A stretch of 64,000 nucleotides of DNA from Bacteroidia bacterium (GTDB taxonomy: Bacteria; Bacteroidota; Bacteroidia; J057). The notes beneath the pieces were generated by a model. That model worked only from the letters and a program-made list of their open reading frames with translations. It had not been told where the DNA came from and made no database searches. A program made the translations under genes and the position numbers. Position 1 is the stretch's first letter; every line of letters begins with the position of its first letter. The stretch is from the NCBI GenBank assembly GCA_030430205.1, contig JAUIGE010000012.1, positions 62,001 through 126,000 of the forward strand. Reading direction: 5' to 3'. Of the stretch, positions 5,887-55,681 are shown piece by piece.

Positions 5887-5887
5887 G

Positions 5888-6736
5888 CTACTTTAAGCGG
5901 GCCACCATGATGCCACTTTGGCTTTTATTTCCCATCAGATAATCTGACAGAGGTTTGCTGCTGACTTCTACCTTTTTGGAAGAAGAGGAGGCATGTAGCA
6001 AATGGATTCTTCCATTTTCGAGGATGGCCATACCCGTATGTGAAACATCCAGACCGCCGATGCTGGTGGTGATAGCAATAAGATCGCCAGATTGGATATT
6101 TTTCTCCAGGTCAGCTACTTTGTTTTTGGGAATAAAATACCTCTTTTGCTGGTTTAACTTTTCCTCAACCTGCTGTATTTTTTGGTAAAAGCTATCGTTT
6201 GACAGGGCCGGATAGGCAGAGCGATGCGTGGACATAAAATCAATTTTTTTATCATACAGCTGCCCGCCGATATCTTCCGTAATATCCTCCAAAATCCCTT
6301 TTTGCTCATTGTCCCACAGCCATTCGCTGAAATAATGCAGGCGGGAGGCATAGCCATTCATTTCGCCATTCCTGTACCTGATGTGCTCCAGTTCAGCCAG
6401 GAAGTCCTCAAACTCGCATTGATCTATGCGCGCGAGGCGTGACATGACCACCACATTTTCCAAAAATGTCGTGCAATCCAGGCCATTGAGGTGAATCACC
6501 AGTTTTTCGTCTCCCTCTTTTTCCAAAGTGCCTGCCTCGTAAGGGGTCGCTAAAAAGCGCGTTCCCACTTCAAGTGCAATGTCTGTGATTTTCAGATCAC
6601 CCAGTTGGTGATCAGCCAGGCTGTTCAGATGAGCCATGCAAAGTGCTTTGTTTGTTGGGGTACAATGTATTTGCTGTGCGCGAGCAAAAGGAATACAGCA
6701 GGCATAGCAGAAGAGGAAGAGATAAAAATATTTCAT
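5888..6736 (-). CDS. DUF1460 family, N-acetylmuramoyl-L-alanine amidase-like protein
   Basis: The 282-residue protein has an N-terminal signal peptide (about 20 residues, ending ARAQ). Its features match the DUF1460 family, a papain-fold (NlpC/P60-like) group proposed to act on peptidoglycan: GTRFLATPYEAGTLE near residue 60, the probable nucleophile Cys88 in GLDCTTFLENV, a conserved stretch IRYRNGEMNGYASRLHY at about 119-135, and His233 in DVSHTGMAI followed by LLHAS. It is monocistronic and convergent with the upstream adhesin. Substrate specificity cannot be judged from the sequence. Confidence 0.85.
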   Translation of the reverse strand: MKYFYLFLFCYACCIPFARAQQIHCTPTNKALCMAHLNSLADHQLGDLKITDIALEVGTRFLATPYEAGTLEKEGDEKLVIHLNGLDCTTFLENVVVMSRLARIDQCEFEDFLAELEHIRYRNGEMNGYASRLHYFSEWLWDNEQKGILEDITEDIGGQLYDKKIDFMSTHRSAYPALSNDSFYQKIQQVEEKLNQQKRYFIPKNKVADLEKNIQSGDLIAITTSIGGLDVSHTGMAILENGRIHLLHASSSSKKVEVSSKPLSDYLMGNKSQSGIMVARLK

Positions 6737-6813
6737 GAGTTGTGAACGATAAAAAGATTATTCAATTTTAACAAAAAACCATCAATTCTGTGGTTTGAAA
6801 AGATTCTGATATC

Positions 6814-7077
6814 ATGTTCAAGTTTTTTAAGCAAAATTCAAACGGTAAAAATGGCCACAACTCCCAGAATCAAATACGCATGTCTGATTTGGACGGCCAG
6901 CCGATAGGTGTGGGAGATAAGGTAGAATGTCTCCGTTACGATATGGGGATTTGTGAAATAGTGGAAGGGGAGGTAGGTTTCGATTATGTCTCGCTGGAGA
7001 CAGGCAAGCGAGTCAATTTTACCCGCATGGTGGACGCTGCCACTTCTTTCCAAAAGGTCAGAAAAATTGAGGGATAA
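6814..7077 (+). CDS. Small hypothetical protein
   Basis: An 87-residue soluble protein with an N-terminal basic/Asn-rich stretch and a compact region, residues 28-80, predicted to be mainly beta (DGQPIGVGDKVECLRYDMG, then CEIVEGEVGFDYVSLETG). The GDKVE plus YVSLETG arrangement resembles small KOW/SH3-like barrels that sense or carry metal or act in translation, but no family is recognised. The ATG at 6814 gives the full frame. It stands alone between the divergent DUF1460 gene and the sulfite-dehydrogenase operon. The intergenic stretch after it (7081-7142) is very AT-rich and may hold the operon promoter. Confidence 0.6.
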   Translation: MFKFFKQNSNGKNGHNSQNQIRMSDLDGQPIGVGDKVECLRYDMGICEIVEGEVGFDYVSLETGKRVNFTRMVDAATSFQKVRKIEG

Positions 7078-7142
7078 TGACAAAAGTAATTTGAATTAAT
7101 ATAATAATATTATAATATTGTTCCGATATTTTTTAAAATATA

Positions 7143-8345
7143 ATGAAGGGCAAAAAAATGGCGGGCTCCAGAAGAGGTTTTTTAAAAAGTGGAATAGCAC
7201 TGCTACTGGGGAGTGCATGGGGAGGCAAATTCGTTTTTGCTAAAAAAGTCCAAATCCCGATCCCAGGCAAACACCCAGAGCTCGTCATCCTGAATGACCG
7301 CCCACTCAATGCGGAGACACCGGCACATTTGCTGGATGAAAAAATAACCCCGGCCGATGTGCTGTTTGTGAGGAATAATGGCTTTCCTCCCGAAAAAGTG
7401 GACATCGCCAGCTGGACCCTGACAATAGGAGGCGAGTCTGCCAGGCAGGAAAAAACCTACACGCTGGCAGAATTAAAGGAAAAATTCTCCCATCACAGCT
7501 ACCAGCTGACGCTGGAATGTGGCGGCAATGGCCGCGCCGAATTCAACCCGGCTGCCAAAGGCAACCAATGGACCACCGGGGCCGTCGGGGCCCCTCTCTG
7601 GACAGGCGTACGCCTGAAGGATGTGCTGGAAGATGTCGGCATCAAAGCTGATGCGGTCTATATCGGCTATTATGGCAGCGACAGCCACCTGAGTGGTGAT
7701 CCCGACAAAGTCGTGATTTCGCGGGGAGTACCCATCGCCAAGGCGATGGAGGAGGAGTCTCTGATTGCCTGGGCAATGAATGGGGAAGCACTTCCCCGGC
7801 TAAATGGTTACCCGCTCAGGCTGGTTTTTGGGGGATGGCCCGCATCCACCTCAGGCAAGTGGCTCACAAAAATTGTGGTGCGCAACAAAGTGCATGATGG
7901 CCCTAAAATGGAAGGCGATGCCTACCGTGTGCCCTGCAATCCCGTAGCCCCCGGCAGCAAGGTCGCTGATGAGGATATGTGCATCATCGAATCCATGCCG
8001 GTAAAATCCCTGATTACCTACCCCAAAACAGGGGGAATCCTCAAAGCAGGGCAGGAAGTGGAAATACGGGGTAAAGCCTGGGCTGGAGATCTTTCGGTGA
8101 AAGCGGTGCATATTTCTGTAGATTTTGGTGCCAACTGGCAGGCTGCACAGCTCAGTCCTGCCTCCAATCGCCTTGCATGGCAAGGCTGGAAAAGCAGGAT
8201 CAGGCTGCCCCAACAGGGGTACTACGAAGTCTGGGCGCGGGCTACAGACAGCGAAGGAAATATGCAGCCCATGGTCGTTCCGGGCTGGAATCCCAAAGGA
8301 TACCTCAACAATGCCTGCCACCGCATTGCACTTAAAGTCAGCTAA
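7143..8345 (+). CDS. Tat-exported molybdopterin oxidoreductase, sulfite dehydrogenase (SorA/SoxC)-like
   Basis: A twin-arginine signal (SRRGFLKSG, then a hydrophobic run) starts the 400-residue protein, so it is predicted to be exported folded. Cys126 in QLTLECGGNGR sits where the sulfite oxidase family has its molybdenum-ligating cysteine, in the typical ECGGNGR context. The central Moco domain (about residues 45-280) contains GVRLKDVLEDVG and GYPLRLVFGGWPA. The C-terminal 110 residues form the Ig-like dimerisation domain, with RGKAWAGD and VWARATDSEGN. The next gene, 3 nt downstream, is a membrane-anchored cytochrome c, the usual electron acceptor for SorA-type enzymes. Function inferred: periplasmic oxidation of sulfite or a related S-oxyanion. 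An alternative start at codon 6 is possible. Confidence 0.85.
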   Translation: MKGKKMAGSRRGFLKSGIALLLGSAWGGKFVFAKKVQIPIPGKHPELVILNDRPLNAETPAHLLDEKITPADVLFVRNNGFPPEKVDIASWTLTIGGESARQEKTYTLAELKEKFSHHSYQLTLECGGNGRAEFNPAAKGNQWTTGAVGAPLWTGVRLKDVLEDVGIKADAVYIGYYGSDSHLSGDPDKVVISRGVPIAKAMEEESLIAWAMNGEALPRLNGYPLRLVFGGWPASTSGKWLTKIVVRNKVHDGPKMEGDAYRVPCNPVAPGSKVADEDMCIIESMPVKSLITYPKTGGILKAGQEVEIRGKAWAGDLSVKAVHISVDFGANWQAAQLSPASNRLAWQGWKSRIRLPQQGYYEVWARATDSEGNMQPMVVPGWNPKGYLNNACHRIALKVS

Positions 8346-8348
8346 GGG

Positions 8349-8801
8349 ATGAATCAGGAAAATCAATTGGTTCGCATTGCCTTGCTCAGCAATCTCATCG
8401 CTGTGGTGGCTCTTATGCTGGGCCTGTTGGTTGTCCTGATGCTACAGTATCCCGGGATTTTCCCTTTGGAGGAAGTGCCTGCGACAGAAACTGCTATTGC
8501 AGTGGTTGAAGACAAAATCGAAAATGGGCTGGATGTGGCTTCGGGCTTGGTGGCAGAGGGTGAGTATCTGATCGTCAGGCAAAACTGCACAGCCTGCCAC
8601 TCAGGCAAGCTGGTTACCCAAAACAGAGCCAGCAGGGAAGGCTGGCTGGATATGATCCGCTGGATGCAGAAAACACAGAAACTGTGGGACCTGGGGCCAC
8701 AGGAGGATAAAATCCTGGATTACCTCGCGACTTATTATGGACCCGAAAAGAAGGGGAGACGGGCGCCTTTGGTGGTTGAGGAATGGTATGTGATCGAATA
8801 A
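8349..8801 (+). CDS. Membrane-anchored c-type cytochrome, partner of the sulfite dehydrogenase
   Basis: The 150-residue protein has one N-terminal membrane helix (about residues 9-33) and a haem c site C80-T-A-C83-H84 followed by SGKLV. A WMQKT segment at about residue 109 could supply the axial Met. It follows the molybdopterin subunit after 3 nt, so the two are very likely co-transcribed and form a SorAB-like electron transfer pair delivering electrons to the respiratory chain. The size agrees with small single-haem subunits of this kind. Confidence 0.85.
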   Translation: MNQENQLVRIALLSNLIAVVALMLGLLVVLMLQYPGIFPLEEVPATETAIAVVEDKIENGLDVASGLVAEGEYLIVRQNCTACHSGKLVTQNRASREGWLDMIRWMQKTQKLWDLGPQEDKILDYLATYYGPEKKGRRAPLVVEEWYVIE

Positions 8802-8814
8802 TCAGTAAAGTAAA

Positions 8815-9699
8815 ATGAATAAATATCTAGACGCATTTGCAAATGCATTCACTGGCACCCTGGACTGGACCTGGAGGTCCATACTCTTTGATGTGCCCTG
8901 GTACACCAACTATTTCTGGGGATTGATAGCCATATCGGTGGCTGTCTGGCTTTTGGAAATAGCTTTTCCCTGGAGAAAAAATCAGAAAATAATCAGACGG
9001 GATTTCTGGCTGGATGCTTTCTACATGTTTTTTAACTTCTTCATTTTCGCTATTGTAATCAGTGGCGTCTATCAGGTCATTGGTCTTTTGTTTGGAGAAA
9101 TCAACATCACAGCCAAAAGCCTGGCAATTATGGATATTTCTGCCTGGCCGATGTGGGTACAATTGTTGGTATTCTTTGTTATCCTGGACTTTGTACAATG
9201 GTTTACCCATGTATTGCTTCATAAGTACCCCTTCCTGTGGAGGTTTCACAAAGTGCATCACAGTGTGAAGGAAATGGGCTTTGCCGCTCACCTGAGGTAC
9301 CATTGGATGGAGAACATCCTGTATAAGCCACTGAAGACATTTGGGGTAATGATCATTGGGGGATTTGAACCCGAGCAGGCCTATATGGTCCATTTTGCTG
9401 CAATAGCAATCGGCCACCTAAACCATGCAAATATTAAAATCAGTTGGGGGCCTCTAAAGTATATTTTCAATAACCCTGTTATGCATTTATACCACCATGC
9501 CTACCATTTGCCGGAAGGTAAATTTGGCGTAAACTATGGGATAAGCCTCAGCCTATGGGATTATATCTTCAGGACCAATTATATCCCCGAGGACAGCGGG
9601 ACAATTGAAATTGGATTCCCCGGAGACGAGAACTTTCCCCAAGGATTTATTGGCCAAAGTCTATCCGGCTTTGGTAAAGAGAAAGAGAAAGAGAAATAA
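8815..9699 (+). CDS. Sterol desaturase / fatty acid hydroxylase family membrane protein
   Basis: A 294-residue multi-pass membrane protein with helices at about 31-50, 66-90, 112-130 and around 180-200. It carries the di-iron histidine clusters of the fatty acid hydroxylase superfamily: H132-x3-H136, then H145-x2-H148-H149 in FHKVHHS, and MHLYHHAYH near residue 222. Family members hydroxylate or desaturate lipids at a di-iron centre facing the cytoplasm. It lies 13 nt after the cytochrome gene, which suggests a single operon, and it could then draw or feed electrons through it, but the substrate is unknown. Confidence 0.85.
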   Translation: MNKYLDAFANAFTGTLDWTWRSILFDVPWYTNYFWGLIAISVAVWLLEIAFPWRKNQKIIRRDFWLDAFYMFFNFFIFAIVISGVYQVIGLLFGEINITAKSLAIMDISAWPMWVQLLVFFVILDFVQWFTHVLLHKYPFLWRFHKVHHSVKEMGFAAHLRYHWMENILYKPLKTFGVMIIGGFEPEQAYMVHFAAIAIGHLNHANIKISWGPLKYIFNNPVMHLYHHAYHLPEGKFGVNYGISLSLWDYIFRTNYIPEDSGTIEIGFPGDENFPQGFIGQSLSGFGKEKEKEK

Positions 9700-12103: not shown

Positions 12104-13793
12104 ACCCTGCCGCCTGCCCATCCTTCCGCGATTCGGAAGCGCCATAGAAGACCTTTTGAACTGGATCATACATGATCGCCTGGTAGCCGCCATACCCGCC
12201 GACAGAAAATTGAATGCGATGCCCTTTCTGGCGGAGTTCGCGTAGGGTTTCAGCGGAAAAGCCGCTTTCCAGGTACAGGATTCCTCCGTCTTCCATCACC
12301 TCATCGGTGGGCTGTGAGGAGCCTTCATGGCGCATGCGCGCCGCATCTCCTGCTTCCTGCAGGTTCATGCCGAAGTCAATCATATTGACGATGATCTGCA
12401 CATGGCCCTGCGGCTGCATGGCGCCGCCCATCACGCCAAAGCCCATAAAGGGCTGTCCGTCTTTGGTGACAAAAGCGGGGATGATGGTGTGGAAAGGCCT
12501 TTTTCCCGGCTCATATTGATTGAAATGCCCTTTTTCCATGCTAAACAATTCGCCTCTGTCCTGCAGGATAAAGCCCAAATCTTTGGGGATCACACCCGAG
12601 CCCATGCCCCGGTAATTGCTTTGGATCAGGGAAATCATATTTCCCTCCCCATCAGCTACCGTCAGGTAGATGGTATCACCCTCTTCCAACTCCCCGGCGG
12701 GATAACTTCTGCCAGCGCGCCTCGCGCTGATAAGCTTGCGTCTTTCATCCGCATAGGCTTTGGAGATCAGCCAGTCTACCGGCAGGGCATTGAATGCCGG
12801 GTCGGCATAGTACTTCGCCCGATCTTCAAAGGCCAGTTTCTTGGCCTCGGTTAGTGTGTGCAGATATGCTGCACTGCCAAATCCCATGCTCCGGAGGTCA
12901 TAGCCCTCCAGGATGTTGAGCATTTGCAGGGCAGCGATGCCCTGCCCGTTGGGAGGCAACTCCCAGACGTCATAGCCTCTGTAATTGGTGGAGACAGGCT
13001 CCACCCACTCGGAGCGATGCCGCGAAAGGTCTTTTACGTCCAGGAAACCGCCCTGTTCCTGTACTGTTTTTGCGATGGTATAGGCGATATCGCCTTCGTA
13101 GAAGACATTTCGCCCTTCCTTCGCGATGCGCGAGAGGGTATTGGCGAGGCGGGGATTTTTGAAAATCTCTCCTTTTACGGGCGCATGCCCATTGGGCATA
13201 TAGGTTTCTGTGAAACCGGGGTATTGATGGAGGAAGGTCGCGGAGCGACCCCAGTAGTAGGCGATCAATTCTGTGAGGGGAAATCCCTCATTTGCATAGC
13301 CAATGGCTGGCGCCAGGATCTCTTCCATGCTCAATTTTCCAAATTTGCCATGGAGTGTAAACCAGCCATCAACACAGCCTGGCACAGATATGGGCAGCGG
13401 TCCCAAAGAGGGGATTTTATCCCTTCCCTGATCCTTCAGCATCTTTTGCAATTGTTCAAAACTAAGACTTTGCGGCGAGCGGCCACTGCCATTCAGACCA
13501 TAGAGTTTTTGCTCTTCTGCACTCCATACAATAGCGAAAATATCGCCTCCGATACCGTTGCCGGTGGGTTCTACCAACCCCAGCACCGCATTGGCGGCGA
13601 TGGCGGCGTCTATGGCGGAACCGCCTTTCTTCAGGATGTCCAGGGCGACTTGTGTCGCCAGAGGCTGACTCGTAGCCGCCATGCCGTGCTGGGCGATGAC
13701 CTCTGATCGCGTAGCGAAAGCTTTGCCGGTCAGGCGGTCTTGTGCCGAAAGCAGGCAGGGGAGGAGTGCCAGGAGGAAAAATATATTTTTCAT
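12099..13793 (-). CDS. ggt: Gamma-glutamyltransferase (gamma-glutamyltranspeptidase), periplasmic
   Basis: The start chosen gives a clean signal peptide (MKNIFFLLALLPCLLSAQ); an in-frame ATG 57 nt upstream would place a polar stretch before it. The protein shows the Ntn-hydrolase features of the family: GGSAIDAAIAANAVLGLVEP near the N-terminus, GGDIFAIVW, and the autoprocessing site DTIYLTVAD, whose Thr (about residue 374) would become the N-terminal nucleophile of the small subunit. SNYRGMGSGV and GFGVMGGAMQPQGH follow. Known reaction: transfer or hydrolysis of the gamma-glutamyl group of glutathione and related compounds. Length (564 aa) is normal. It ends close to a long inverted repeat. 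Confidence 0.93.
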   Translation of the reverse strand: MKNIFFLLALLPCLLSAQDRLTGKAFATRSEVIAQHGMAATSQPLATQVALDILKKGGSAIDAAIAANAVLGLVEPTGNGIGGDIFAIVWSAEEQKLYGLNGSGRSPQSLSFEQLQKMLKDQGRDKIPSLGPLPISVPGCVDGWFTLHGKFGKLSMEEILAPAIGYANEGFPLTELIAYYWGRSATFLHQYPGFTETYMPNGHAPVKGEIFKNPRLANTLSRIAKEGRNVFYEGDIAYTIAKTVQEQGGFLDVKDLSRHRSEWVEPVSTNYRGYDVWELPPNGQGIAALQMLNILEGYDLRSMGFGSAAYLHTLTEAKKLAFEDRAKYYADPAFNALPVDWLISKAYADERRKLISARRAGRSYPAGELEEGDTIYLTVADGEGNMISLIQSNYRGMGSGVIPKDLGFILQDRGELFSMEKGHFNQYEPGKRPFHTIIPAFVTKDGQPFMGFGVMGGAMQPQGHVQIIVNMIDFGMNLQEAGDAARMRHEGSSQPTDEVMEDGGILYLESGFSAETLRELRQKGHRIQFSVGGYGGYQAIMYDPVQKVFYGASESRKDGQAAGY

Positions 13794-17495: not shown

Positions 17496-17505
17496 CGGTC
17501 CTATT

Positions 17506-17579
17506 GGGCCTATAGCTCAGTTGGTTAGAGCAACTGACTCATAATCAGTAGGTCCCTGGTTCGAGCCCGGGTGGCTCGA
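17506..17579 (+). tRNA. tRNA, CAT anticodon (probable tRNA-Ile2), acceptor stem damaged by prophage insertion
   Basis: D arm, anticodon arm (loop CTCATAA) and T arm (CCTGG/CCGGG with loop TTCGAGC) are all well formed. The acceptor stem is not: 5' GGGCCTA faces 3' TGGCTCG, giving mismatches at 1-72 (G-G) and 4-69 (C-C) plus wobbles. If the sequence following the same CCGGGTGG core at the right prophage end is used instead (TGGGCCC), the stem pairs completely. CAT could mean Met or Ile2; C4-G69 and C5-G68 in the restored form are the pairs known to be needed by the lysidine synthetase TilS in E. coli, which favours Ile2. In its present form the tRNA may be poorly functional. Confidence 0.8.
17567..17574. 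other. attL core (CCGGGTGG)
   Basis: The 8-bp sequence CCGGGTGG lies at the T-stem/acceptor junction of the first tRNA and recurs at 60,396-60,403. Left of it is the host tRNA body; right of it the sequence no longer fits the tRNA acceptor stem. Confidence 0.7.
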
Positions 17580-17596
17580 AGTACACAGAGTAAAAA

Positions 17597-17670
17597 GGCC
17601 CCGTAACTCAGTTGGTTAGAGTGCCTGACTCATAATCAGAGAGTCGCAGGTTCGAGTCCTGCCGGGGCCA
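17597..17670 (+). tRNA. tRNA, CAT anticodon (probable tRNA-Ile2), inside the prophage
   Basis: A complete cloverleaf: acceptor GGCCCCG/CGGGGCC pairs perfectly, D stem ACTC/GAGT, anticodon loop CTCATAA, T arm GCAGG-TTCGAGT-CCTGC, discriminator A. The acceptor GGCCCC and pairs C4-G69 and C5-G68 resemble E. coli tRNA-Ile2, which suggests lysidine modification and AUA decoding. It starts only 17 nt after the damaged tRNA and 22 nt inside attL, and shares its promoter. No CCA is encoded. It is best read as a phage-carried replacement for the tRNA the phage interrupts; an originally tandem host tRNA is less likely because the right-end joint matches the first tRNA better. Confidence 0.9.
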
Positions 17671-17685
17671 CAAGAAGCTGAAAGA

Positions 17686-17809: not shown

Positions 17810-19066
17810 ATGGCTATCCCCTATTTGTACCTCAGACAAAGTGCCAATCAGAATGGCACACATGCTATTATGATTGGGCTAAGTTTCCCTTCAAAGCACG
17901 TCCGCCTGAGCCTCAAGAAATATATCAAGCCCGAAAAATGGGACGAAAGGAGGCAGTGTGTAAAGGGATCAGGCCAGGATGTCAATCGGCTCAACCTACT
18001 TCTTGCGAAAAAGTTGGCGCTTGCCAACCAAATCCTGACATATTATGAATTGTTGGATGGAATAGATTTAAGCCCTGAATTATTTATCAAAGAATTCAAG
18101 CAGCCTGCCAGCAAGACAGATTTTTTGGTGTACTATCAGGAGGCATGTGAAGACGACTACAACCGGCGGCTGATCGCACCTGCAACCTACGACATGGAGC
18201 AAAGGACCCTCAGAAAGCTGAAGAGCTATCAGCCTATTATCTTGTTTTCTTTTATCAATCGAAAGTGGATTGAGAAGTTTGATGTGTGGCACACAAAGCA
18301 ACTTGTCAAAAAGGGTTATGTGGGAAATGGGGAAAGATCACATGCCCTCAAGCACATCCGGAAATACCTGAACCGCGCCAAGCAGGATGGTAAAATATTT
18401 GTCTACCCATTTACTAATTTCAAGTGGCCACAGGTGATGGAAGAAATCAACTTCCTCACAGAAGAAATGCTAAGAGACCTGATAGACCTCAGGCAAAATG
18501 ATGACCGGATCATGGAAGGCTTATTGGCCAGGGCTAAAAAGATAAGCATGTTTGACTGGAATATTGAACAATATGCTAATGAAATAGGAATAAGGAGGGT
18601 CAAGCGGATAGCCACCAATTTCCTGATACAATGCTTCACAGGCATGAGGTATTCGGACCTGCAGGCTGTCACCTGGTTTGATAATGTGATTGATGATCGA
18701 CTGCAATTTGTGCCCATCAAGACAAAAAACACAACCCAGAAAACGGTGAAGGTAAGGATGAAGCTCAATCCTATCCACTACGATGTCTTCAGGCCGATAA
18801 AAGATAACCAAATAGCCTATCCCCTACCCAACAGCAAGTACAATAAGCACCTGAAAGAATTGGGCGACATCTTGGGTTTGCCATTCCAGCTACATAGCCA
18901 CATAGGTAGGCATACATTTGCTACGCTCTATCTCACACGGGGTGGTAAGATAGAAGAGCTGAAGGACTTGATGGGAGTCACAAAGTTGGAAACTGTGATG
19001 GTATATGTACACATCACACGGGACACCCTGGATACGGGCATGGATCGGGCCTGGGGTTCTTTTTAG
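17810..19066 (+). CDS. int: Tyrosine recombinase (phage integrase)
   Basis: The 418-residue protein has the N-terminal arm-binding domain typical of Bacteroidota integrases (LYLRQSANQNG then KYIKPEKWD), a SAM-like core-binding domain (about 105-200) and a catalytic domain. Catalytic Arg280 lies in CFTGMRYSDL, the HxxR pair is His364/Arg367 in HSHIGRHTF, and Tyr399 is in VMVYVHIT. The residue that is usually His or Trp in the LGH motif is Val390 (LMGVT), an unusual replacement. It sits next to attL, reads away from the tRNAs and is the only rightward gene at this end. Its role is integration and excision at the tRNA core. Confidence 0.93.
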   Translation: MAIPYLYLRQSANQNGTHAIMIGLSFPSKHVRLSLKKYIKPEKWDERRQCVKGSGQDVNRLNLLLAKKLALANQILTYYELLDGIDLSPELFIKEFKQPASKTDFLVYYQEACEDDYNRRLIAPATYDMEQRTLRKLKSYQPIILFSFINRKWIEKFDVWHTKQLVKKGYVGNGERSHALKHIRKYLNRAKQDGKIFVYPFTNFKWPQVMEEINFLTEEMLRDLIDLRQNDDRIMEGLLARAKKISMFDWNIEQYANEIGIRRVKRIATNFLIQCFTGMRYSDLQAVTWFDNVIDDRLQFVPIKTKNTTQKTVKVRMKLNPIHYDVFRPIKDNQIAYPLPNSKYNKHLKELGDILGLPFQLHSHIGRHTFATLYLTRGGKIEELKDLMGVTKLETVMVYVHITRDTLDTGMDRAWGSF

Positions 19067-19503: not shown

Positions 19504-20331
19504 TTATTCTATCTTCACAAATCTGACTACAATGCCTGAATTCGTACGGAGATAATAAGATCCAGGAGCCAGGTCAGATACATCAAAAGAGCTTTCTGAA
19601 AGCTGCTCCATCTGGACCTCCTTCCCTTCCACCGAGAAACATCTCGCCAAATCTGCGGGGACATTCACACTCAGCGTGTGAGTGGCTGGATTAGGATAGG
19701 CTATCGGATAGGATACCTGACCTGCCAACCGTGCCGGGATAGGATTCACAGCAAAATGCTTGTATTCAAATACTGTCGCATCGCTTCCTGGGCCACCCGC
19801 ACTCATAATGCCTACATGGTAGCATCCGCCGGGCATATAGACGCCATTATCCAATACTTCCCAGGACCCACTATTGGAGTACTTGACAGCGATAGTGTTT
19901 AGCTGGCCAGTCTTGATTATTTTCAACCAAAAGCCTGCGGCCTTCCTGCTGATCTTCACAAGGCGGGTGACGGAAAGCCCGCCGGTTGTTTGCCTTTCTT
20001 CGATTTGTAGGTAGCGGTTGCCTGACACGAATACAGCCAGGTAGGGAGAACCAGCCAAGAGGCTTTCCCTGATCATTAGCCCAGCCTCACTGCCATTGTT
20101 ACCCAGAGCAGGGTTGGTAATCTTCACCAGTGCCTCGTTGGTACCACAAGCGAACTCATTCAGATAGCTGAATGAGTCAAACGCTGCTCCATCAGCATAG
20201 CTGACAGTATCCGACACCAGGTTTCCGATTTGTGCGGGATTGGCTACAGCCGCGCCCAGCACATCAAAATTGAGGGCGCTGAGGCTTACACACACAAGCA
20301 TAAGCGACAAAAAAAGGGTTTTAAACTTCAT
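19504..20331 (-). CDS. Prophage-encoded secreted protein with T9SS type A sorting tail
   Basis: The 275-residue protein begins with a signal peptide (cleavage near VLGAA). Residues about 40-195 resemble a concanavalin-like (DUF1349/LamG-type) sandwich: EAGLMIRESLLAGSPYLAVF, then GFWLKIIKTGQLNTIAV and YHVGIMSAGGPG. The end is a type A T9SS sorting domain (YPIAYPNPATHTLSVNV, then LAPGSYYLRTNSG). It lies inside the prophage, 20 nt after the collagen-like fibre gene, and a terminator follows it. The likely role is lysogenic conversion: a cargo displayed or secreted by the host machinery. A structural virion role would not explain the signal and sorting tail. Confidence 0.8.
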   Translation of the reverse strand: MKFKTLFLSLMLVCVSLSALNFDVLGAAVANPAQIGNLVSDTVSYADGAAFDSFSYLNEFACGTNEALVKITNPALGNNGSEAGLMIRESLLAGSPYLAVFVSGNRYLQIEERQTTGGLSVTRLVKISRKAAGFWLKIIKTGQLNTIAVKYSNSGSWEVLDNGVYMPGGCYHVGIMSAGGPGSDATVFEYKHFAVNPIPARLAGQVSYPIAYPNPATHTLSVNVPADLARCFSVEGKEVQMEQLSESSFDVSDLAPGSYYLRTNSGIVVRFVKIE

Positions 20332-29991: not shown

Positions 29992-32103
29992 TCAATAATA
30001 GACCGTCCAGCCATAATCTGGGATTAGCCCCTCACCGGCATAGGCACCGGTACCATTAATTTGGGCCAGTGCTGTGGCATCCGGACTGGATGCATTGTTG
30101 GTGAGGTTTATCCCCTTTATGCCTGAGGTTCTGTATAGGTGCAGTTCATTGACAATTGCGCTGATATTTGTGAGCTGCGAATTGTGCAGCTGTAAAACAT
30201 CCAGATTTATAGGACTATCCAAGGTAAACGTGGTCAATCCGGTGTCATTGGCGGACAAATCTTCCAGCGCAAACCAGCCCGTGCAGTCCAAATGACCGGT
30301 CAGATTAAAGTTATTCCAGACAAGAAACTCAGTCATAGAAGCCTGAACACCCGTAATCAGGGTGTCAAAATCACATAGATGAGCATACACATGCTCAAGA
30401 TTCAAGGCACCGGATATGTCAAGGGTACCTGTCAGGCTGGCGTTGCCTTCTATTTCCAGAATTGTGAGGGATGGCTGGGACCCTACAATGAGGCTATCAA
30501 ATCCACACGAAAAAGCATACACTTCTTCCAGGGTAGGCACACAGCTAAGGTCCAGTGTGCCCGAAAGTCCCGGATTTAATGCGATGTCCAGCACGGTGAG
30601 ATTTGTATATCCACATAGGTTGATTGTGCCTGTAAGGCCCGTATTTCTTGCCCGAAGTTCTGTCACGGGCATAAATCCTGTCACAGAGAGAGAGGGTATA
30701 GCTGTATTCTCTATATTCAGCTGGGTAAGACTGACCCACTTCACGGCCACAAGTGGAGAAGCCAGGGCCGTATTGTCATTGAGCAACAGGGATTCCAGTT
30801 GGGGATGAGCAGCCAGGTTGATTGAAGCAAGGTTATTGTCACTCAAATCCAAAGAACGTAGATTGGTCAAGGCCGCTGCATCAATATCTCCTGTCAGCCC
30901 CTGGGAGGCTATTTCCAGGCTGGTAACCTGATCTGGTAACACATAGACGGCAAAGTTGTATGTGCCTGATCCAGAGTAGCTATGCGAGAGGTTTTGTGCG
31001 CCCGATATATTGCTATATCTCGCTTTGTTACCATCTCCCCACTCTACGCGCAAGTTGGCGGCCTTCAACTCATGATTTATGCTAATAGATGACCCTGATA
31101 ATTGCCCTTTATAAGCAGGTGGGGGCGTCCGGGCAATGAGAGATCGGCTAACTGACATGCTGTCAATGCCGCCTTCCTGTATATAAAGAGATACATTGAT
31201 GCTGGATGGCTCAAGTTCATCAAGATATACCTGTGGGTAAAATGAAAAGGTGTAGCCAGTACCACCCGTTATTTCATCTACTATTTGCTCCTCAAAATCC
31301 CCAAAGCTCTCTGTGCCGCCTACCCAGTTCCAGTTGGATATATTTGCTGGATTCGCATTGGGTGCGATCCATGCCTTAAAATAGGGGTTTTTGCTGGGGC
31401 CAAAGCTATAATATAGGCGTACACTACCAGCAGTGGTGGCACTGAGTGCTGAGCCATCCAGCAGAGATGAGCCTTGTGCAGAAACAACGATTGGACTGTA
31501 GGGATCACCCTGACTTAATCCCAAGGCAGCCGATAGCAAATCCGAGGTAAATGGCTGGCTTAGATTTTCATCAAGATAGGGTGCCGGGCAAAGTCCTGAC
31601 CCGATGAATTCCCACTCAGTTATTGACCAGTTTTTGAGGTTGTGGCCAGAGCTTGAGCCTCCCTTGAATAACATGGGGCGTTCCTTTGTGCCCAATTTCC
31701 TTACATACCCTTCATATAAAAAGGCAATGACTATGTATTTACCATTGCGGAGCTTGCAAAGCTCGGTAACGGTTTCAAATGACAAGTCATTTTTTGCTGA
31801 TATCTGATAGTCATAATAATTGCCCCCAGGGGAATCATTTTGGCTTTCTTTCAACAAAACAGTATTGGGTGGGAAGCTGTAGGATGTGAATCCAGCCCCA
31901 CCGGCCAGGAGGAAGGGTAGTGATATCTTTTCGTCACAGCAGGCAGATGGGTCTACCAGTACTTTCTGAGTTGGGATGACCATCAACTCTTTTACAGACC
32001 CCACTACGACCTTGCATGCAGCGGGCTGTGGGTGCAGATCAGGAAATATTACTGACATGAGCAACAGGATTAGAAGATTTTTCATTTGAACGTTTTTATT
32101 CAA
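29992..32103 (-). CDS. Prophage-encoded secreted leucine-rich-repeat protein
   Basis: The 703-residue protein has an N-terminal signal (MKNLLILLLMSVIFPD preceded by six residues). Residues about 385-680 are LRRs with repeats of about 22 residues (LRSLDLSDNNLASINLAAHP and LTILEIEGNASLTGTLDISG), some in 46-residue pairs. The first half is beta-rich with no clear motif, and there is no T9SS tail. It sits between a hypothetical gene and the protease gene of the head cluster. A signal peptide is odd for a virion component; alternatives are an exported moron or a surface factor. No homolog family is assigned. Confidence 0.7.
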   Translation of the reverse strand: MNKNVQMKNLLILLLMSVIFPDLHPQPAACKVVVGSVKELMVIPTQKVLVDPSACCDEKISLPFLLAGGAGFTSYSFPPNTVLLKESQNDSPGGNYYDYQISAKNDLSFETVTELCKLRNGKYIVIAFLYEGYVRKLGTKERPMLFKGGSSSGHNLKNWSITEWEFIGSGLCPAPYLDENLSQPFTSDLLSAALGLSQGDPYSPIVVSAQGSSLLDGSALSATTAGSVRLYYSFGPSKNPYFKAWIAPNANPANISNWNWVGGTESFGDFEEQIVDEITGGTGYTFSFYPQVYLDELEPSSINVSLYIQEGGIDSMSVSRSLIARTPPPAYKGQLSGSSISINHELKAANLRVEWGDGNKARYSNISGAQNLSHSYSGSGTYNFAVYVLPDQVTSLEIASQGLTGDIDAAALTNLRSLDLSDNNLASINLAAHPQLESLLLNDNTALASPLVAVKWVSLTQLNIENTAIPSLSVTGFMPVTELRARNTGLTGTINLCGYTNLTVLDIALNPGLSGTLDLSCVPTLEEVYAFSCGFDSLIVGSQPSLTILEIEGNASLTGTLDISGALNLEHVYAHLCDFDTLITGVQASMTEFLVWNNFNLTGHLDCTGWFALEDLSANDTGLTTFTLDSPINLDVLQLHNSQLTNISAIVNELHLYRTSGIKGINLTNNASSPDATALAQINGTGAYAGEGLIPDYGWTVYY

Positions 32104-32137: not shown

Positions 32138-32875
32138 TCAAGGGAAGCAATATCCCTTGAGTAAATAATCGTTGATGGTGCTTATCCATTTATCTGCGTA
32201 GTCTTCGAGAGTTCCGCTTTGTATGACATTCCTCGGAATCCTTATGTCTTTTGCGAATAGGGAGCCTCTTGAAAGAGAGAATGCGGAAAATCTGATCCGG
32301 TATCCGTCCCCCTGACGGATCAATTTTGCAAATTTATATGCATGTGCCTGTTGGGTACAAAAGTTACATTTACGGTACACTTTAGACCTTATTTGCTCTA
32401 TTTCTGGAGAAAATCGTATCTGACGCCTCAATTGTCGGCTGGCACTGTCAAAGGAATACTCGTCCTCATTTATATCATAGTGCTGTAGGAAGTTGGCCAA
32501 TGCGATTTCTCTATTCCATTGTTTTTTATCCAGGCATAGACTACTTGCTAGAATCTCCTGGTAGTTTATCCACTTCAACATTGCATCGACAAACTGTTGA
32601 TGAAAGAACAAACCAGCCTTTGCAATCAACAGGATACGTTTGTATTGTGTGGCTAGCTGCTCACTTTCTCCCAGGTTGAGTTGCAGGTAGACAAGAGTAG
32701 TGGGGGAGTCTGTGGTCTTCTGCATAGGGGTAGCAGAGAGGGCCATGAACTGAAATGCCATCCGAAGTGCATTGTGCCGGTTGAATGCCAAATCAAATGG
32801 GGGCTGACCATAGGTATGTACCAGATACTTATATACGTATGGCGTAACAGGTATTTCGACCAATTCATTAAGCAT
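32138..32875 (-). CDS. Hypothetical phage protein with CxxC motif
   Basis: The 245-residue protein is helical, with a CNFC pair near residue 168 and a basic segment (RIRFSAFSLSRGSLFAKDIRIP). It is read just after the TGCACCAC repeat region, on the same strand. No family was recognised. A single CxxC could be half of a zinc site. Confidence 0.45.
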   Translation of the reverse strand: MLNELVEIPVTPYVYKYLVHTYGQPPFDLAFNRHNALRMAFQFMALSATPMQKTTDSPTTLVYLQLNLGESEQLATQYKRILLIAKAGLFFHQQFVDAMLKWINYQEILASSLCLDKKQWNREIALANFLQHYDINEDEYSFDSASRQLRRQIRFSPEIEQIRSKVYRKCNFCTQQAHAYKFAKLIRQGDGYRIRFSAFSLSRGSLFAKDIRIPRNVIQSGTLEDYADKWISTINDYLLKGYCFP

Positions 32876-32989
32876 AAATCAAAATACTCAATAGTTGCAC
32901 CAATGAACGATTCTATTACCCACTTTTTCGCACCATATTTCAGGGTTTTATTTAGGGTAAAAGTACTGAGGGGTTTTTCCGGAAAAGCT

Positions 32990-33389
32990 TGCACCACTTG
33001 CACCACTTTTAGATAAGTAACTAATAAACAGATATTTAAGCCCTTTTTTTTGTGGTGCAACCGTGGTGCAAAGGTGTCTTTTTGTGGTGCAAGTGGTGCA
33101 GCCGAAATTACACAGACGGTTACTTATGGCGTAGCTCGTGCTTTTTTACAAACTTCGAATTTTCGTAACAGCGCCAAAAAACACGTCTCTGTTACACACT
33201 TATTGCAAATGTGTGCTTGATCAGGCCTATCTGCCCATCTGCGGCTTGCACCAAAAACGGGTGCCTTTGCACCACTTGCACCACGGTTGCACCACTTGTA
33301 CGAAAGCACGTACTACTATATAATATATTAATAATCAATAATTTATATATATAATATCACTAAGTGGTGCAAGTGGTGCAAGTGGTGCA
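32990..33389. repeat. TGCACCAC / GTGGTGCA iteron-like array flanking an AT-rich segment
   Basis: Twelve exact copies of the octamer occur in four groups: two inverted (32,990; 32,999), four direct (33,052; 33,063; 33,084; 33,093), three inverted (33,268; 33,277; 33,288) and three direct (33,364; 33,373; 33,382), with further variants at 33,247 and 32,896. Ten of the twelve extend to the 9-mer TTGCACCAC, and most copies in a group are exactly 9 bp apart. The segment 33,311-33,360 between the last two groups is almost entirely A/T. There is no convincing gene in the 634-bp gap (32,876-33,509). This layout fits a replication origin, a partition site or a packaging/regulatory site. Confidence 0.85.
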
Positions 33390-33509
33390 GGGTTTTCTGA
33401 GACTTTTTGCCGCTCGGGCGGGCAACTTACTTTTCGAAACAAAAAAAACCCACACCAGGGGTATGGGCTATCATGAGCATTTAGAAAAAGATAGGGGCTG
33501 GGTGTGTTG

Positions 33510-34535
33510 TTAGAAGGCTATGACTGGGTTATTCCCTTCTCCATCTTCATAGGGTAGTATCATTCCTACATGGACAGCGGCATCATCTTTACTAGAAGAA
33601 TCATTATAGGTTGTGAACTTACCAGAGGTATCCAAATATGTTTTTAACTCAAGCAGAAATAGCTGGCCAGCTTCCTGTAGGTTTACCCACATGGACCGTA
33701 CAACCTCTTCACTTGTGGTTCTGTTGCCCAGGTCTGAGTCAAATGGGATTTCTACCAGTCCATTCTCATTAATTACCAATCTCAAAAAGGGTATTGCACA
33801 AAGGAGGGCCCATTTGGTCAATGCCCTCCTAATGTAGTCCAATAACTCCTTTTGGTCATCAGTCAGATCGTCTGGGAGATTGTCCCGGATACTTGTTTTT
33901 AATTCATCCCAAAGAGCTATTCCAATGACAGGCTTTATATACCGCTTCTCAGCCTCTGATATAAATGGCCTCAGCTGCAAATACACAAGCCTACCATTCC
34001 ATAGCGGAAGGAATGCCCCCAGCTCTTCACTATTGTTAAAGAATAATTCTTTTGATTTCAGATATGCCTTAGAGCCTTCCCATGTAGGGAATTTTGTGGA
34101 ATTTGCTTCTAGCCAGGTCAGCGCCATTTCCAAAAACTTATGCCCTTCTCGGAAGTTTGTTTGTAAAGTCTTTTTGTGGACCCATTGCCTGACTGGCACG
34201 GCTGTGCCATCGGCTGAAGCCGCTTCCTTTTGTCCCGAATCTGCCAGCAAAATCAACAAATCATATCCCGCCTGAAATGCTGTAAAGTAGGCGATAGAGC
34301 GTTGCAGCTTTTTGACCAATATAGCCTGGTCAGCGGTAAGCGTATTTCCAGTATATGCGGTTGATAGCTCTTCATATAGATCCGTACCGATGGCTTTTTC
34401 AATAAATGTCAACTCGACATTTTCTATAATTGGCAAAACAGAAGCCCATTGCATGCCTCCATGAAAAGTAGAAACATAGCGCTTTAGACTATCATCAGGG
34501 AATGCCTCATCAGATATGTATTTGAAAAATGCCAT
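33510..34535 (-). CDS. Phage head-tail connector-like structural protein (hypothetical)
   Basis: The 341-residue protein follows the portal gene by 2 nt. It consists of two similar halves, each with an LWDEL/LYEEL-containing helical segment (IEKAIGTDLYEELST at about 47 and IKPVIGIALWDELKTS near 201) preceded by a structured region. A duplicated gp6-like head-completion domain could produce such an arrangement. No motif is diagnostic. Placement suggests a head-tail connection role. Confidence 0.55.
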   Translation of the reverse strand: MAFFKYISDEAFPDDSLKRYVSTFHGGMQWASVLPIIENVELTFIEKAIGTDLYEELSTAYTGNTLTADQAILVKKLQRSIAYFTAFQAGYDLLILLADSGQKEAASADGTAVPVRQWVHKKTLQTNFREGHKFLEMALTWLEANSTKFPTWEGSKAYLKSKELFFNNSEELGAFLPLWNGRLVYLQLRPFISEAEKRYIKPVIGIALWDELKTSIRDNLPDDLTDDQKELLDYIRRALTKWALLCAIPFLRLVINENGLVEIPFDSDLGNRTTSEEVVRSMWVNLQEAGQLFLLELKTYLDTSGKFTTYNDSSSKDDAAVHVGMILPYEDGEGNNPVIAF

Positions 34536-48300: not shown

Positions 48301-48335
48301 GCCCGCAAGATGGCGGGATACTCAGCTTTTGGATA

Positions 48336-48430
48336 GGACAGGAAACTGGTGGCGATTGGTAAGGAAACTGGTAGTCCGATTGGTAAGGAAACTGGTAAGG
48401 AAACTGGTAAGGAAAATGGTAAAGGAACCT
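48336..48430. repeat. Tandem 12-bp repeats GGTAAGGAAACT
   Basis: Exact copies of GGTAAGGAAACT start at 48,358, 48,382 and 48,394, with variants at 48,336 and 48,406. They fill most of the 143-bp gap between the zinc-ribbon-like gene and the first tail gene. Because the unit is 12 bp, an overlapping open frame encodes FPYQ repeats. A regulator-binding array or a slippage-prone spacer is possible. Confidence 0.75.
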
Positions 48431-48443
48431 GTATTGCGAGTTC

Positions 48444-49512: not shown

Positions 49513-50163
49513 CTACTTGCCCATGTGTGCTGCAATCTTACGCAATCTTTTTAGCTCAGGGTATTTTTCATTAGGCCATGTCTTACCCTTTGATATAGCT
49601 CCGACACTAGAGCTAGACATTTTAAACTGCGTGGATATTTCTGCATGCGTGTATCCGTCCGCAATCATCATAAGGATTTTCTTCACCTCTTCAATATTGA
49701 GTAGTCTCCTCGGTTTTTGCTTCTTCCGAGGTGGGCGAGTGGATAGGTATTCTTGCCTAAGTTTTTTTATTTCCTTCATGGAAGGATCATTCCAGGTATT
49801 CCCCGAGATAATCGATCCCAAAGACCCTTTATTTTTTAGGCCGTACTTACTTGCAATGTCTTCATGAGGGGTATCACTTAACAGAAGTAGAAAGATATCA
49901 CAAATATCTTTCTCACTCAGTTTTGAGGCATGGTGGGATTCGCCCCACATGTTGACGGGGGAAGGATTCCTTTCCCTCGCCAAGAGGGTTCTCTCCCTTT
50001 GTGAGCAAATGTCCTGATATTTGGTTGCATTGCTCCATGTTCTCCCAGATAGTATATGGGTAACTGTGGATATGCCTACTCTGTGGCTTTTTGCCACTTC
50101 TTTTATTTTAACTCCGCACTCCAAATCCTTTAAAATTTGGAGTACGGATTGTTTCTTTAGCAT
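49513..50163 (-). CDS. Three-fold repeated helix-turn-helix DNA-binding protein
   Basis: The start at 50,163 (MLKKQSVLQILK) avoids overlap with the upstream gene; an ATG 60 nt upstream is also in frame. The 216-residue protein contains three copies of a module of about 40 residues, each a helix-turn-helix followed by the same motif: ILSGRTWSN, IISGNTWND and ISKGKTWPN. The modules lie at about 6-45, 84-125 and 148-188. Similar short HTH modules occur as DNA-binding parts of intron or homing endonucleases, but no nuclease motif is present. A multivalent regulator or origin binder is inferred. Confidence 0.65.
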   Translation of the reverse strand: MLKKQSVLQILKDLECGVKIKEVAKSHRVGISTVTHILSGRTWSNATKYQDICSQRERTLLARERNPSPVNMWGESHHASKLSEKDICDIFLLLLSDTPHEDIASKYGLKNKGSLGSIISGNTWNDPSMKEIKKLRQEYLSTRPPRKKQKPRRLLNIEEVKKILMMIADGYTHAEISTQFKMSSSSVGAISKGKTWPNEKYPELKRLRKIAAHMGK

Positions 50164-50182
50164 TTTGATATTTTTCTTTGTA

Positions 50183-50791
50183 TCAGCGCCTGCTCCTTTT
50201 CCGAGCAGGGTTTGTTGGTTCAAATTCCTGATATTTTAGATCAGATTTAATAGATCTCTCAATCGTGCTGGGCTCGGATGGCTGCCGAGCCTGATACCCG
50301 TCATTGTTCAGGCGAATCACCTGAATTTGGCGGGATCGAAACATATCCCTAATCCCGAAGGGGACCAGTTCCTTTGTTTCGTGGTTTTCTAGAAAAAAAT
50401 GTTCTCCCTGGGATTCTATATCCCTTATTGTTACCTCCGGCTCTTCGCCAGAGGGGCAATAAATCAAAAAACTCCTGTTTAAAAATTCCCCCGACTTTTG
50501 GGGTTGATCGAATCCGACAACCCGCAGGCCTGGGAGTTGATGAATTGCAACTGATTGATCTGCTAGGTAGTTGCAATATACAAACCACATATTATCCTGT
50601 ATTGATGCAGGATAAGTGGTATACGTGTGAAAGCAATTGGGCAATCTCCTATAAAACATTTTGATTTCTGTTTGCCTTTTTGGGGAGCCTGTTCTTTTCA
50701 AGAAGCAAGTACCCCAGTATCCCTCTACTATGTAGAACCCGTTTTTTGCCTTAACAAGGCAATTTGGCAGTCTTTCTTGATAGATTTTCAT
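50183..50791 (-). CDS. Hypothetical phage protein
   Basis: The 202-residue protein is alpha/beta with a basic end (PTNPARKRSRR) and a central region with FLIYCPSGEEPEVTIRDIESQG. Not recognised. It precedes the tri-HTH gene. Confidence 0.45.
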   Translation of the reverse strand: MKIYQERLPNCLVKAKNGFYIVEGYWGTCFLKRTGSPKRQTEIKMFYRRLPNCFHTYTTYPASIQDNMWFVYCNYLADQSVAIHQLPGLRVVGFDQPQKSGEFLNRSFLIYCPSGEEPEVTIRDIESQGEHFFLENHETKELVPFGIRDMFRSRQIQVIRLNNDGYQARQPSEPSTIERSIKSDLKYQEFEPTNPARKRSRR

Positions 50792-54143: not shown

Positions 54144-54434
54144 TTAAACGATCACCCAATCCTCAGCAAGCATATCGGTTTGACTTGCAAGCCATCCCGT
54201 CAGAATTTTATCATCCGCCGTCTTCATTCTAATTGATCCTAAGGCCTCAAAATGGTCTTTGCCATTGTTTTCAAGAACCTCCTTCAGCGCGGGGTCGTGG
54301 ATAGCTGTTTTCGGGATAGTTCCGGCGGGCAGCAAAAACAAAAACATGCCTTTGCCATTCCAGCCTTCACGGGCAATCTTTGCCCCATCTTTCAACGCTT
54401 CAAGAGCTGCACCAAATGTTAATTGGATTTTCAT
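54144..54434 (-). CDS. tad2: Tad2-like (DUF2829) anti-Thoeris protein
   Basis: The 96-residue protein shows the DUF2829/Tad2 pattern: an N-terminal FGAALEALKDGAKIAREGWNG-type segment (residues 7-27) followed by KGMFLFLLPAG and, after a variable loop, IRMKTADDKILTGWLASQTDMLAEDW. Known family members such as SPO1 Tad2 bind the signalling molecule 1''-3' gcADPR made by Thoeris TIR proteins and block NAD depletion. The gene is in the early part of the prophage, where anti-defence genes are expected, and is followed by short ORFs. Full length matches the family. Confidence 0.85.
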   Translation of the reverse strand: MKIQLTFGAALEALKDGAKIAREGWNGKGMFLFLLPAGTIPKTAIHDPALKEVLENNGKDHFEALGSIRMKTADDKILTGWLASQTDMLAEDWVIV

Positions 54435-54885: not shown

Positions 54886-55203
54886 CTAAGCAATTTCCCT
54901 GAATAAGGGATTGATTGTCCGGGGATTTGCTCGTTCCATGACCAGGTCCTTGAATTCTGCATAGTCACTCAGGGTTCCTGAGTCCTGCTTGATCATTTCG
55001 TCCAGTGCGAGGATGTATTGTCGGGTTGTCCCTTTGTCCCTGTTTAGATAAATGCCTATTGACTCAAAGGTCCACGAAAATTCGTGGCGTAGAAAGTACG
55101 CCACGAATTTTCTTTTCATCACAAGGTATTTACTCCTCGATGGGCCCCGCATTTGTGCTTCATTTGTCTTCAAAATGTCGTAAAAAAACGACATCTGAGA
55201 CAT
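54886..55203 (-). CDS. DnaA domain IV-like DNA-binding protein
   Basis: From MSQMSFFYDILKTNEA (an upstream ATG at 55,239 overlaps the SSB end), the 105-residue protein has a region (MKRKFVAYFLRHEFSWTFES, IGIYLNRDKGTTRQYILALD) similar in pattern to the C-terminal DnaA domain IV (IAMYL then SLPEIGxxFGxRDHTTVLHA), a helix-turn-helix that reads DnaA boxes. It follows SSB. A phage origin-binding or DnaA-recruiting role is inferred. Confidence 0.55.
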   Translation of the reverse strand: MSQMSFFYDILKTNEAQMRGPSRSKYLVMKRKFVAYFLRHEFSWTFESIGIYLNRDKGTTRQYILALDEMIKQDSGTLSDYAEFKDLVMERANPRTINPLFREIA

Positions 55204-55216
55204 GGGCCTATTTTCG

Positions 55217-55681
55217 CTAAAATGGCAAATCATCATCATCTTTCATTTTTTGAGTTGTTACGGAGGGCATGCCAGGCAGTACTTGCTGGCCATCGGCTGG
55301 CGGCGTAGATGGGGGGGCTGGGGCATATATCTTTTCGGTTGCCTGGGCCATTGACATAGGCGCGGGCTGCGGGGTTTCTTTCGGCGAACCCAAAAGTTGA
55401 ATGATTGAGGCATTTACGGAAATATCAACCTGATATGAATTGCTTCGCTCATGGAAGAATGACTTCATTGATGCCCGGCCAAGTACCATCACTCTGGTTC
55501 CCTTAGTGAGGTATTGTGCCAGGGCTAAGTTTCGGGAAAAGACATTTATCCACTGTGTGGATTCGATCCCTTTTCTTTTGTCATTTACTGCCACGGAAAA
55601 CCGAATGTAGGGTGAGCCGCCATTCTCTTGTTTTTGTACGGCATCAAATCCGCAGTGTCCTTCAAAGGTTAAATGAATCAT
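55217..55681 (-). CDS. ssb: Single-stranded DNA-binding protein
   Basis: The 154-residue protein has an OB fold (residues 1-110: FRFSVAVNDKRKG-type strands, WINVFSRNLALAQYLTKGT and VMVLGRASMKSFF), a Pro/Ala-rich linker (about 112-145) and the acidic C-terminal tip KDDDDLPF. It would protect ssDNA in replication and recruit partners by the tip. Confidence 0.93.
   Translation of the reverse strand: MIHLTFEGHCGFDAVQKQENGGSPYIRFSVAVNDKRKGIESTQWINVFSRNLALAQYLTKGTRVMVLGRASMKSFFHERSNSYQVDISVNASIIQLLGSPKETPQPAPMSMAQATEKIYAPAPPSTPPADGQQVLPGMPSVTTQKMKDDDDLPF

Follow-up and report, generated by a model that had tools for sequence, protein, structure and literature searches.

What is a dense array of one short word doing in a gap between the head genes of an integrated phage? 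The window, that is the whole 64-kb stretch analysed here, belongs to a Bacteroidia genome of 7.24 Mb and carries an integrated tailed phage of roughly 43 kb (about 17.6–60 kb, with approximate ends), whose genes lie on the minus strand from 59.8 down to 19.5 kb. The virion genes found in this prophage were those for TerL, an S49 head protease, a tape measure protein and a DUF6712 adaptor; att repeats were looked for and not found. The array occupies part of a 634-bp gap (32876–33509) which the initial annotation had described as lacking genes and as lying between phage head genes. The gap overlaps only two mechanical ORFs, and its placement between head genes was accurate: it is bordered by the adaptor gene on one side and, on the other, by gene X, followed by the genes for a leucine-rich-repeat (LRR) protein, the head protease and a major-capsid homolog. 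The LRR protein, which sits inside the head operon, has a signal-peptide-like start as judged by eye, and a shorter LRR homolog (E 9e-6) comes after X in Roseivirga (G338). We propose that the array at 32990–33389 is probably the replication origin of the prophage and that the initiator binding it is encoded by the phage, the primase-helicase being the likeliest candidate.

Table 1. Positions in the window of the array, its parts and the genes discussed in the text
Feature	Position	Strand	Remark
tRNA-Met genes	17504-17671		
Integrase	17810-19066		
703-aa leucine-rich-repeat (LRR) protein	29992-32103	-	between X and head protease
Gene X	32138-32875	-	undescribed phage family; adjoins array; binder role considered, disfavoured
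Lone degenerate site	32896-32901	+	just upstream of gene X
Iteron group A	32990-33006	+	two TGCACCAC, 9 bp apart (32990, 32999)
AT-rich spacer 1	33007-33051		80% AT; between convergent A and B
Iteron group B	33052-33100	-	four TGCACCAC (33052, 33063, 33084, 33093); spacing 11, 21, 9
Spacer between the two convergent modules	33101-33246		54% AT over 33101-33267
Iteron group C	33247-33295	+	degenerate copy (33247) and three TGCACCAC (33268, 33277, 33288)
AT-rich spacer 2	33296-33363		82% AT; 33311-33362 90% AT; candidate melting site
Iteron group D	33364-33389	-	three TGCACCAC (33364, 33373, 33382), 9 bp apart
Terminator-like hairpin	33447-33469	-	behind adaptor gene; consensus scan only
DUF6712 head-tail adaptor	33510-34535	-	upstream of gap; 'adaptor' is the Leef_1 annotation
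Multi-HTH protein	49513-50223		alternative binder candidate
DnaA domain IV-like protein	54886-55239	-	PF08299 8e-5, below Pfam cut-off; alternative binder
Phage SSB	55217-55681	-	replication module
Primase-helicase, 1017 aa	56036-59089	-	phrog_1139 DNA primase 1.8e-18; candidate initiator

The octamer TGCACCAC was counted 13 times in the 64-kb window, with 12 of the copies inside the array, against an expectation of 1.76 for the whole window and a largest count of 6 in 100 shuffles; the number observed in the gap was reached by none of 200 shuffles of it. As had been described, the 12 exact copies form four groups of alternating orientation with a prevalent spacing of 9 bp, which applies to five of the eight within-group steps (11 bp in two, 21 bp in one). 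The shorter core TGCACC occurs 14 times in the gap when two degenerate copies (33247 and 32896, both on the plus strand) are included, and 22 of its 36 copies in the window are scattered outside the gap, the chance expectation for the whole window being 34.5. The groups constitute two convergent modules, A-AT-B and C-AT-D, with about 150 bp between them. The initial annotation had noted a single A/T segment of about 50 bp. There are two AT-rich spacers, one inside each convergent pair. The stretch 33311–33362 is 90% AT, and no other 52-bp stretch in 17601–60400 reaches this value. In the spacer between the modules, several GTTACA- or ATTACA-like words were noticed by eye; such words are the iterons of other relatives, and these are perhaps the remains of an older array. 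The array is the sole TGCACCAC cluster in the prophage; among the 8-mer clusters listed there is just one more, a small cluster near 48.34 kb (TAAGGAAA four times at 48340–48408, in a gap at 48301–48443).

A GC-skew profile had been suggested as a way of recognising an origin here. Among the same-strand genes at 19504–59835, the skew at third codon positions on the coding strand flips at the array, being negative in 13 of 15 genes to its left and positive in 20 of 26 to its right. The sign of this flip is that expected of a terminus, the flip coincides with a module boundary, and the phage Leef_1 described below has no flip. GC skew thus lends the origin no support; the flip may mark the junction of two modules or be a replication signal whose sign is unexpected.

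We examined whether the same word is used elsewhere. The dimer GTGGTGCAAGTGGTGCA was present in 98 IMG/VR stretches, with one copy each among the 80 of these 98 that were listed, and in one of 13 family genomes, the window's own. The spaced dimer TGCACCACNTGCACCAC was present in 18 of 395 class genomes, with more than one copy only in the genome of the window (G000). No second array of TGCACCAC was found in the IMG/VR stretches, the 13 family genomes or the 395 class genomes. Absence from related phages, which the initial annotation had counted among the grounds for refutation, does not hold in kind: the exact array is absent from them, but the same type of element is present with other words.

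These elements were recognised through gene X. Relatives of TerL had pointed to distant phages, and 40 loci of the X family were collected. In many Bacteroidota phages X is among the first genes of the head operon, and at the limits applied neither Pfam nor PHROG yielded a family for it; the X of the window is a weak homolog of gp39 of the Polaribacter phage Leef_1 (BLASTP 2e-8). Directly before gp39, at 29.1–29.5 kb of Leef_1, there is a cluster of the word ATTACA, and a cluster also precedes the X homolog of Roseivirga. A significant repeat cluster (matched by at most 1 of 200 shuffles) was detected in the 700 nt before X at 14 of the 40 loci, a count from which borderline cases were left out (G471, 2/200; L216, 3/200; L212, 7/200; L217, 9/200; L207, 42/200). 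The 700 nt behind X served as a control and had a cluster in two of 38 cases, both with GC-rich words (G631 and G646). In relatives, a cluster has as many as 14 short sites, which point either way and surround AT-rich spacers. Their words include TTACA, TGTTACA, TTCCTACA, TTCCAACA, TTGCACGAA and TGTCCGA, and across the X loci TGCACC, GTTACA, GCACGAAT, TGTCAA, TCACAAAA, TGTTGGAA and TGCACGAA are found as well as TTACA and TGTTACA. No X locus of the G069 family had a cluster; in the prophage of G069 itself, the place immediately in front of X that the array occupies in others is taken by a gene resembling, by eye, a serine recombinase (L144:11311-11980). On a tree of X, the presence of a cluster is scattered (10 changes; 91 of 500 label shuffles were equally low).

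Clusters were also found near the primase gene. In G746, TTCTACAA occurs eight times at 8630–8845, directly 3' of the primase gene at 5273–8566. In G471 and G575, eight copies of TGTAGGAA lie directly 3' of the primase gene as well (3708–3964 behind 851–3688, and 1099–1225 behind a primase ORF at 46–1059, respectively). None of these three has a counted cluster before X. The cluster is 2–3 kb behind the primase gene in L208, in the prophage G107 and in a phage recorded as a Microcystis phage, where a gene annotated as hypothetical overlaps it. The L209 cluster precedes X by about 4.6 kb, in a record in which no primase was recognised. These seven pieces have 5–8 copies of one 8-mer within 350 bp, and their shuffles (30 each) never exceeded four. 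The pieces of G391, G069 and G498 that were examined showed no clear array, only 8-mers with 4–5 copies, for which no shuffles were run, and G738 has ATTACA eight times with no 8-mer reaching four copies. Two further clusters from the scan, at 12643–12968 of Leef_1 (within the tape-measure gene) and at 6705–6945 of G745, were not taken for origins. Array positions are hence of two kinds: one is before X, where the early genes give way to the head operon, and the other immediately follows the 3' end of the primase gene. The array of the window is of the former kind and is 22.6 kb away from its primase-helicase gene.

The layout of the sites recurs in both kinds. With start-to-start distances given across the long gaps, and read in the direction of X where X is the reference and otherwise as the piece stood, the order is >>> 78 <<<< 152 >>>> 55 << plus a lone site in the window, >> 40 <<<< 22 >> 70 <<<< in G746, >> 61 <<< 22 >> 61 <<< in G471, << 58 >>>> 34 << 61 >>> in the Microcystis phage and << 78 >> 15 <<< 60 >> in G107. 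The long spacers of these five are 72–89% AT, except for one of 61% in G107, and in phages with a primase of the Leef type the middle of the array is more mixed in orientation. Site counts depend on the words chosen for each array; two overlapping words count one place twice in G745 and G247, and L212 has only four sites. Since runs tests on orientation are singly weak (p = 0.025 for the window, 0.11 for G746 and 0.19 for G471), the claim of a common layout rests on its recurrence across phages.

An indication of what reads the array comes from two sibling phages, G740 (L213) and G742 (L215). Their X proteins are 83%, their portals 88% and the compared parts of their TerL 93% identical; the gene before TerL, TerS by position, is 96% identical, and three of the four genes preceding the primase are 75–84% identical, the fourth 38–43%. 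The array of G740 consists of TCACAAAA and its primase is a 946-aa protein of the Leef type, whereas G742 has TGTTGGAA/GTTCAAC and a 1158-aa DnaG-fused primase. The two also differ in the integrase and in other small early genes. That array word and primase-helicase were both replaced favours a replication origin whose word goes with the replication module; it disfavours a packaging site, as well as an operator belonging to the neighbour gene. Conversely, Leef and G737, with primases 72% and X proteins 30–36% identical, both have a TTACA core; ATTACAGAA is common to G738 and G741, whose primases are 78% and X proteins 62% identical; and TGYCCGA is common to the Microcystis phage and G107, with 79% for the primase and about 72% for X. 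The three pairs with primases more than 70% identical had motif similarities of 0.63, 0.59 and 0.29, compared with a median of 0.11. Together with the split between the siblings, this sharing of words is what is expected if the replication module reads the array. ATTACA is also common to Leef and G338, and the only Leef homolog at E<=1e-4 in the 55–92 kb piece of G338 is the primase. One pair counts against a match with the primase, namely G471 and G575, which use the same word although the compared parts of their primases are 24% identical. In Mantel tests on 16 phages, motif similarity was not significantly correlated with that of the primase (r = 0.11, p = 0.135) or of X (r = 0.20, p = 0.056). 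Pairs of sites at the array ends are spaced by 8 bp in seven of seven phages with Leef-type primases versus one of eight with window-type primases (9–10 bp), but the Fisher test (p = 0.0014) is uncorrected for ancestry, leaves out L208, which is of the Leef type but lacks an 8-bp end pair, and G321, whose class is ambiguous, and includes a primase fragment (G135), and we do not rely on it.

An alternative is that the array is an operator at which X or another regulator controls the promoter of the head operon, from X to the capsid gene, as a late-gene switch. X was long considered the binder since the clusters sit before it, as they do at 14 of the 40 loci; in the window the array is placed between the terminator-like hairpin of the upstream gene and X, and the correlation of motif with X is, if anything, stronger than that with the primase. 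Yet the X proteins of G740 and G742 are closely similar while their words are unrelated, the clusters of G746, G471 and G575 are behind the primase gene and not before X, and the word forms no second cluster elsewhere in the window prophage. X as the binder has been largely abandoned on account of the sibling words and the clusters behind primase genes, and we regard an operator as unlikely. The structure model of X is mediocre (pLDDT 64.5). Foldseek placed COMMD-ring proteins at the top of its matches to this model, with E 1.3e-3 and a TM of about 0.2, and the seventh-ranked match was 9q6a, a COMMD-like protein from Flavobacteriaceae; sequence gives no confirmation of this resemblance.

The array could also be an origin at which another early protein binds and recruits the primase-helicase. 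The DnaA-IV-like and the multi-HTH proteins, both named as possible binders in the initial annotation, are encoded in the prophage, and several small early genes differ between G740 and G742. In a comparison of 14 early window proteins against 20 phage pieces (E<=1e-3), the primase-helicase matched seven of the pieces, the SSB, a C5-methylase and the protein at 54144–54434 matched one each, and the other ten, including the DnaA-IV-like and multi-HTH proteins, matched none. The DnaA box pattern TTRTHCACA is absent from both strands of the 634-bp gap, and IHF-like words are not conserved, occurring in two of eight regions (one in the window and two in Leef). These two proteins are thus not favoured, and a binder other than the primase-helicase appears improbable, to about the same degree as an operator. 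No Rep_3/RepA initiator was matched in Pfam among the window proteins scanned, the small ORFs having been scanned in part. For the C-terminal part of the primase, the structure model was useless (pLDDT 32).

The remaining explanations are far less probable. The array is near the terminase genes, as a packaging (pac/cos) site might be, but the words of G740 and G742 differ in spite of their nearly identical TerS-position and TerL genes. Integrase arm sites would agree with the Leef_1 array, which follows an integrase gene, and with the G338 array, which is near a prophage end; they are contradicted by the distance of 14–15 kb from the window array to the integrase and tRNA genes, and the recombinases of Leef_1 and G338 look unrelated by eye (tyrosine versus serine type) while both arrays use ATTACA. 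Short-repeat arrays are typical of parC/tubC-like partition sites, but a centromere-like role, equally remote, is disfavoured because no partition gene was recognised among the window proteins scanned, the element is integrated, and the word of G740 and G742 changed along with the primase.

An iteron-type replication origin, suggested at the outset on the basis of repeats and AT content, is therefore the reading that gained support from the comparison with relatives. In the mechanism that we envisage, the phage's own initiator, most likely the primase-helicase, would bind the A-AT-B and C-AT-D modules; oligomers of the bound helicase would then open up the AT-rich spacers and load at them when the excised phage replicates. 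More tentatively, many Bacteroidota tailed phages may share one origin layout of opposed iteron groups around AT-rich spacers, often in two modules, with the word exchanged as a cassette together with the primase-helicase. A single group of phages would then have many replication codes, each incompatible with the others, and in the window's phage the origin would stand where the head operon starts, 22.6 kb away from the gene of its initiator. If so, origins could be read directly from these phage genomes, and the code between initiator and iterons could be tested by swapping the modules of two sibling phages. Such an origin in Bacteroidota phages is undescribed in the titles and abstract beginnings of open-licence papers among the matches listed. 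On a separate matter, the phage recorded as 'Microcystis phage Mea-Yong924-1' (MZ447863; L170/L139) has head genes of the same group; given these and the identity of its primase and X to those of the Bacteroidia prophage G107, its true host may, judging by sequence, be a Bacteroidota bacterium rather than Microcystis.

Several known origins resemble the array in part. The iterons of lambda lie within the O gene, alongside an AT-rich region; the window likewise combines iterons with AT-rich DNA, but its iterons are intergenic and alternate in orientation. Satellite P4 pairs ori/crr, a bipartite origin with short repeats, with the primase-helicase initiator alpha, and the likeness to the candidate initiator and short repeats of the window is one of parts. 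Iteron words differ between SaPIs, too.

In the excerpted text of one paper (PMC6092414), SaPI/PICI origins lie 3' of the initiator gene and have an AT-rich region with a set of iterons on each side, and the P4 alpha protein and its cognate ori are mentioned; in that of another (PMC7581432), it is the C-terminal domain of SaPI Rep that recognises the origin. As far as these excerpts go, the window resembles the SaPI/PICI origins in its opposed iteron sets around AT-rich DNA (80% AT between A and B, 82% between C and D), G746, G471 and G575 resemble them in the origin immediately 3' of the rep/pri gene, and the candidate initiator of the window would correspond to their primase and initiator helicase, which are sometimes fused (Pri-Rep). 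Unlike them, the window has two convergent modules at a distance of 22.6 kb from the primase-helicase gene, and its host element is a complete Bacteroidota tailed phage, not a satellite. Since the three relatives match in place and layout and the window in layout only, the array may by analogy work like a SaPI/PICI origin, yet the prophage is not a PICI element, as PICIs lack a full virion gene set and this prophage has TerL, head protease, tape measure and adaptor genes. In the Vibrio satellite PLE, as described in the excerpted text of PMC7145576, noncoding iterons between orf5 and orf7 are likewise apart from the initiator gene (repA, orf11), but that initiator is of the RepA_N family. Leef_1 (Helgolandviridae) shares related head genes and an array of its own before gp39, and differs in its word, ATTACA, in its more mixed site order and in a primase without a match to that of the window at E<=1e-3; according to the excerpted text of PMC8776804, which holds no origin statement, Leef may replicate through concatemers. 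If our reading is correct, full phages also have a layout that has been reported as special to satellites, and this would bear on the exchange of replicons between satellites and phages.
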